This document shows, one piece after another, positions 60,119 through 60,602 of a stretch of 64,000 bases of DNA (its first letter is position 1; each line of letters starts with the position of its first letter). The position numbers and the translations under genes were made by a program. The DNA is taken from contig JAKIWS010000007.1 of the NCBI GenBank assembly GCA_022749895.1, positions 1 through 64,000 of the forward strand, in the 5' to 3' direction. Source of the DNA: Thermoplasmata archaeon (GTDB lineage Archaea > Thermoplasmatota > Thermoplasmata > Lutacidiplasmatales > UBA184). Below the pieces are notes generated by a model. That model searched no databases. It was not told the DNA's origin and was given only the letters and a program-made list of their open reading frames with translations.

Positions 60119-60317
60119 TCCGCATCCCCCGGCATGGGTCGCAATCGGTAGGACCGCTTCGCGGTATATCGTCCTTGACCTCGATTCCGTTCCCGCGTCG
60201 CGTCCCTCGCCCGGCCCCCGTCGCCGCGGTTGCCCCGCGTCGAACCGTGCTCGGCGCGCGGTCGGGGCCGGCGTGCCGCGGCAGGTTTATGTGTCCTGCA
60301 AAGCTCCCATCGACTGT

Positions 60318-60424
60318 AGCCCCGTAGTGTAGTGGCCAATCATGCGAGACTCTGGATCTCGCGACGCAGGTTCGAACGCTCCGAGGCCGCGCGACCTCGG
60401 TGGCCGGAACTCCTGCCGGGGCTA
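60318..60424 (+). tRNA. tRNA-Gln (CTG) with 34-nt T-loop intron (about 60377..60410)
   Basis: AGCCCCG/CGGGGCT acceptor; anticodon arm CGAGA-CTCTGGA-TCTCG; T-stem GCAGG/CCTGC; removing the intron restores TTCGAAT; TATA-like gtttatgtg about 28 nt upstream. Confidence 0.9.
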
Positions 60425-60457: not shown

Positions 60458-60602
60458 GCGGGGGTGCTCCAGCTCGGCCAAGCCGCCCGGTCTCCCGGGC
60501 GGGGCCTCCGAGGCAGGGCTTAGAACCCTGTTGCTTAGGGCATGCGCCGGTTCAAAGGGAGCGCGGCCCGCCGCCGCGTTCCGGAGACTCCGGCCCCCCG
60601 CA
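60458..60602 (+). tRNA. tRNA-Leu (TAG) with D-loop intron (about 60482..60508) and T-loop intron (about 60557..60588)
   Basis: GCGGGGG/CCCCCGC acceptor + A; anticodon arm CAGGG-CTTAGAA-CCCTG; V-arm TGC..GCA; T-stem GCCGG/CCGGC; intron removal restores TTCAAAT and a class II tRNA of about 86 nt. Confidence 0.88.

Follow-up and report, generated by a model that had tools for sequence, protein, structure and literature searches.

Positions 60458-60602 (+ strand) of the window, the whole 64,000-nt stretch of DNA analysed, almost certainly constitute a functional, single-copy tRNA-Leu(UAG) gene, from a soil-dwelling Thermoplasmatota archaeon of Lutacidiplasmatales type, with two bulge-helix-bulge (BHB) introns, which would be cut by the sole alpha'2 EndA of the genome and whose exons would be joined by RtcB. 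The two introns, their boundaries and the length of the mature tRNA-Leu(TAG) product are supported by sequence comparison, and from the sequence we also infer transcription, cleavage, ligation and the order of these steps.

The gene of 145 nt consists of a 5' exon (60458-60481; tRNA positions 1-21), a D-loop intron (60482-60508; 27 nt, at 21/22), a middle exon (60509-60556; positions 22-59, with the anticodon TAG at 60521-60523), a T-loop intron (60557-60588; 32 nt, at 59/60) and a 3' exon (60589-60602; positions 60-73, with discriminator A73), all on the + strand. The first-pass annotation had described intact acceptor, anticodon and T-stem elements split by two insertions, and the acceptor stem (GCGGGGG/CCCCCGC), T-stem (GCCGG/CCGGC) and anticodon arm (CAGGG-CTTAGAA-CCCTG) were all found intact and in place. 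The tRNA is of class II, with a variable region of 15 nt, A73 and the anticodon TAG, as in tRNA-Leu. A canonical intron at 37/38 was considered for this gene and is ruled out by the intact anticodon loop. Removal of 60482-60508 and 60557-60588 leaves 86 nt, as had been estimated; ARAGORN calls tRNA-Leu(TAG) after both removals and makes no call with neither or only one of them removed, and ARAGORN and Rfam both skip the gene in the raw window, as had been anticipated for standard scanners. Folded in isolation, the precursor forms the anticodon stem and a hairpin for each intron.

The D-loop intron has the BHB predicted for it, with an outer helix CTC/GAG, a central helix GGCC/GGCC (60476-60479 with 60503-60506), bulges AA|G and TC|C and an inner stem of 8 bp; the 5' central strand is made of G18-G19 and the next two bases. 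It fits the BHB definition of a 4-bp central helix, two 3-nt bulges and a cut after the second bulge nucleotide. A strict search of the 145-nt gene (4-bp central helix, 3-bp outer helix, inner helix of at least 7 bp) returned 60482-60508 as the sole site, and any site at all was found in 20 of 2000 shuffled sequences. Counting against the reading as a spliced gene, the outer helix of the motif takes the D-stem strand 60510-60512, which is paired with 60467-60469 after splicing, so that this strand must change partner between the precursor and the mature tRNA.

The T-loop intron misses the strict definition, which asks for a full 4-bp central helix: T54-T55-C56-A57 (60551-60554) faces GGAG (60583-60586) and gives three pairs (U.G, U-A, C-G) and an A57.G mismatch. 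Its bulges, its outer helix, which is the T-stem, and its inner helix lie in BHB register and are kept by covariation. The motif is thus a slightly relaxed BHB, and that in the T-loop of the neighbouring tRNA-Gln is a full one. The A.G mismatch recurs in 21/21 aligned 35-nt T introns of tRNA-Leu from relatives.

Similar introns occur in about a third of the tRNA genes of the window genome, according to a census built on Rfam hits with E up to 10 and on the stretches around them. The automatic double-splice search yielded many spurious second cuts, and we kept only those cuts for which T-stem pairing or an orthologue gave backing. At least 13 genes have a T-loop intron at 59/60, namely Leu(TAG), Gln(CTG) and eleven others (loci L028, L029, L030 and L102-L109): Asn, Arg(TCT), Arg(TCG), Ser(GCT), Ser(CGA), Ser(GGA), Gly(TCC), Ala(GGC), Asp, His and Lys(TTT). 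D-loop introns are present in Leu(TAG) and Lys(TTT) and, less surely, in Arg(GCG), Lys(TTT) (L109) having both kinds together; canonical 37/38 introns are found in Tyr, Met, Trp and Leu(TAA). Cut sites placed by T-stem pairing and by BHB geometry agree in most of the T-loop introns tested, and a relative of about 100% completeness has largely the same intron set. In the T-loop motif the T-stem forms the outer helix and T54-T55-C56-R57 the central strand. Among the 13 T-loop introns, each of the six in G57 tRNAs places C opposite position 57; of the seven in A57 tRNAs, six place G there, giving A.G, and one places U. An A.G in this central helix therefore seems to be tolerated, judging from these sequences.

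The window genome has one EndA gene (G000:C28:1389-2192). A single frame contains two PF01974 repeats, the protein resembles the Archaeoglobus alpha'2 enzyme (1R0V/2GJW) over its full length, and its second repeat has the catalytic Tyr...His...Lys motif. By its sequence the product is a two-repeat alpha'2 splicing endonuclease. The second subunit of an (alpha-beta)2 enzyme and the three-unit chain of an epsilon2 enzyme were not found in this genome. The spacing from YGS to LSL is 7 residues, equal to that of the wild-type Archaeoglobus enzyme, and 17 in 3P1Y, which by length and sequence we take to be a CSL chimera of the Archaeoglobus enzyme; by this comparison an 11-18 residue CSL/ASL loop near the active site is absent. 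Relatives in the class have the same EndA layout wherever the locus was parsed, which covers part of their loci. RtcB is encoded in the window genome (E 3e-174).

According to reviews, the alpha4 and alpha2 endonucleases cut canonical BHBs only, and euryarchaeal tRNA introns are mostly single and canonical (PMC4033280, PMC4090602, PMC6379350). The simplest reading of the introns described here is that alpha'2 enzymes need a local BHB, not a given position, and the A.G mismatch of the Leu T-loop intron is the one feature that strains it. Both introns could be real and one of them, the mismatched T-loop intron, be cut by another or accessory activity and not by alpha'2 EndA alone; the mismatch in six of the seven A57 tRNAs and the rating of alpha'2 enzymes as narrow in specificity (PMC6379350) speak for this. 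It is nevertheless improbable, at roughly one chance in ten, since only one EndA-type gene was found in the window genome and in nearly all genomes searched, and since the mismatch is set by position 57, as though A.G were tolerated. Furthermore, the homodimeric EndA of Ferroplasma cleaves minimal BHB substrates, homodimeric EndAs being credited with cleavage of BHL-like motifs (PMC8707768), and the Archaeoglobus enzyme is reported to cut BHL-like motifs at 37/38 in full-length pre-tRNA.

That the gene is functional is indicated by its conservation. The relatives recognised by neighbouring genes, Candidatus Lutacidiplasma silvani among them, are MAGs of the Thermoplasmata. At 30 of 30 same-genus loci tRNA-Gln(CTG) adjoins tRNA-Leu(TAG), with one intron in Gln and two in Leu at constant positions, the Leu T-loop intron always lying at 59/60 and measuring 32, 33 or 35 nt. 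The Leu exons have a mean identity of 98.2% across these loci, the 5' exon being near invariant; mean identity falls to 56.6% for the 27-nt D introns and 61.7% for the 35-nt T introns. In spite of this divergence the central and outer helices of the D-loop BHB are paired in 25/25 relatives. The inner helix of the D intron is 86.9% paired, against 62.7% when 3' strands are swapped between species, and none of 2000 shuffles reaches the observed value; the two parts of the inner helix in the T intron likewise pair above shuffles (0/2000), counts that serve as support and not as probabilities, because the strand shuffle ignores kinship among the species.

Intronless tRNA-Leu(TAG) genes exist in G037 and G039, two genomes from within the order, and in G053, from within the class. 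The spliced window tRNA aligns with all three; its D-arm equals those of G037 and G039 in length and its T-arm is identical (GCCGGTTCAAATCCGGC), so that these orthologues, like ARAGORN, agree with the two insertions, their boundaries and the total length first proposed. In G038 (L144, same order), tRNA-Leu(TAG) appears with a T-loop insert of a different length, 13 nt, possibly an independent or an eroded intron.

A blast search with the spliced 86-mer, looking for an intact tRNA-Leu(TAG) elsewhere, returned no unbroken copy in the window genome, nor in any of six relatives that are 94-100% complete; in 7/7 genomes the match splits at 24/25 and 72/73, segment 1-24 of the query corresponding to the 5' exon. 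The lack of a second copy is weak evidence in the window MAG taken alone (2.0 Mb, 83% complete, 106 contigs), and an intact second copy was also not found in the relative of about 100% completeness. The other Leu tRNAs detected are CAA, GAG, CAG and TAA, and CTA codons are in use, with 8 among the 2225 codons of seven ORFs in the window.

These data bear on the proposal that the locus has decayed into a pseudogene and its inserts always stay in place, for which the two inserts and the failure of ARAGORN and Rfam to recognise the gene could be cited. Exons that stay near invariant in 30 genomes while the inserts diverge with compensatory changes, the lack of another copy of the isoacceptor, also in the nearly complete relative, and the use of CUA codons make decay very improbable. 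An assembly artefact of one MAG, conceivable in a genome in 106 contigs, is practically excluded by the same arrangement in 30 genomes.

The neighbouring tRNA-Gln(CTG) (60318-60424, + strand; 73 nt when spliced) has a T-loop intron of 34 nt at 59/60 (60377-60410), of which place and length are kept in 30/30 relatives. The four pairs of its central helix, TTCG/CGGA, are kept in 29/30, 30/30, 30/30 and 30/30. The ARAGORN call for this gene (60316-60392) has a wrong 3' end, which lies inside the intron. A TATA-like element, TTTATG (60286-60291, + strand), lies about 32 nt upstream of tRNA-Gln and probably serves as promoter for an operon of the two tRNAs; an element containing TTAT is found equally far upstream in most of the 30 relatives, and none comparable is evident in the 33-nt Gln-Leu spacer. 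Since the element precedes Gln and the short spacer has none, tRNA-Gln(CTG) and tRNA-Leu(TAG) are probably co-transcribed.

The orthologous tRNA-Gln(CTG) genes of G039 and G037 (L142, L143) lack the T-loop intron. They have what seems to be a long anticodon-loop insert (384 and 184 nt by ARAGORN), built of short repeats that also occur in the flanking DNA.

The Leu precursor, most likely transcribed jointly with the upstream tRNA-Gln(CUG), would fold its D-loop into a canonical BHB around 60482-60508, and around 60557-60588 a second, slightly relaxed BHB would arise, with the T-stem as its outer helix and T54-A57 in its central helix. The single two-repeat alpha'2 endonuclease is expected to cut both motifs by their local structure, and RtcB would join the exons to a tRNA of 86 nt. 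Splicing probably comes before trimming of the ends and modification of the T-loop, since the precursor has both its D-loop and its T-loop interrupted and no tRNA elbow can form until the introns are out.

T-loop introns extend beyond the genus. A strict pattern, GGTTCGAA-N(20-50)-CGGAA(A/C)TCCC, is found in 68 of 300 genomes of the Thermoplasmata, spread over 19 of 89 genera, and the reversed pattern used as control matches none. A looser pattern was set aside, having some reversed-control matches outside the genus. Most of the 14 matches inspected lie within recognisable tRNAs, and several of these are tRNA-Lys(UUU) or tRNA-Arg(CCG) in which an extra D-loop insert was judged by eye. It is fairly likely that class-wide T-loop (59/60) and D-loop introns, present in about a third of the tRNA genes in the window genome, are processed by plain alpha'2 endonucleases in the Thermoplasmatota, with a CGGAA-like intron end pairing to T54-T55-C56-R57, which is nearly universal. 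With such an end a single intron design would suit almost any tRNA.

tRNA-Lys(UUU) with D-loop and T-loop inserts was seen in four other families of the class (f5, f18, f22 and f32; L187, L188, L189, L190, L199), which suggests that the two-intron form of this gene may be old. tRNA-Arg(CCG) has both inserts in families f4 and f9 (L148, L191, L200).

A heavy, multiple and non-canonical intron load in a euryarchaeal phylum with a simple alpha'2 endonuclease tests the accepted view that CSL/ASL loops, by expanding specificity, permit non-canonical introns. If the class-wide reading is true, the rule that narrow alpha'2 enzymes confine introns to the canonical site is wrong, and tRNAs that seem lost from such MAGs may have been overlooked. 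ARAGORN, and Rfam used with its cut-off, fail to find or wrongly trim a good share of the tRNAs in these soil archaea, which bears on completeness estimates and on claims of missing tRNAs. What merits further work is the class-wide pattern together with the alpha'2 enzyme.

The intron type is already known, and what is new is the lineage, the number and the enzyme context. No report of multiple or T-loop tRNA introns in Thermoplasmatota was found among the papers listed by searches of the open-access literature, a scope that leaves priority uncertain, GtRNAdb and most subscription papers lying outside it; the word "intron" is absent from the Lutacidiplasmatales genome paper (PMC9287336). Multiple non-canonical BHB introns are best developed in Thermoproteales, where Pyrobaculum has up to three per tRNA, with 59/60 and 20/21 among the positions listed (PMC4090602), and P. 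calidifontis has 71 introns in 46 genes (PMC8450103). The window lineage resembles them in the BHB motif, the D-loop and T-loop sites, several introns per gene and the many tRNAs affected, but those are Crenarchaeota with (alpha-beta)2 enzymes, whereas here the host belongs to Thermoplasmatota with alpha'2, and position 59/60 is dominant. Outside Crenarchaeota, tRNAs with multiple introns are listed for Methanopyrus, Methanothermobacter, Korarchaeum, Nanoarchaeum and ARMAN, Thermoplasmatota being absent from the table (PMC4033280). These share more than one intron per tRNA and non-canonical sites with the present case and differ in their endonucleases, which include (alpha-beta)2 and epsilon2 types. 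Closest on the enzyme side are the alpha'2 endonucleases of Archaeoglobus (1RLV/2GJW), Thermoplasma (2OHC) and Ferroplasma, which likewise have one chain with two repeats, a catalytic second repeat and no CSL-like insertion; they have been described with canonical BHB substrates, whereas the window lineage has at least 20 introns, most of them non-canonical.
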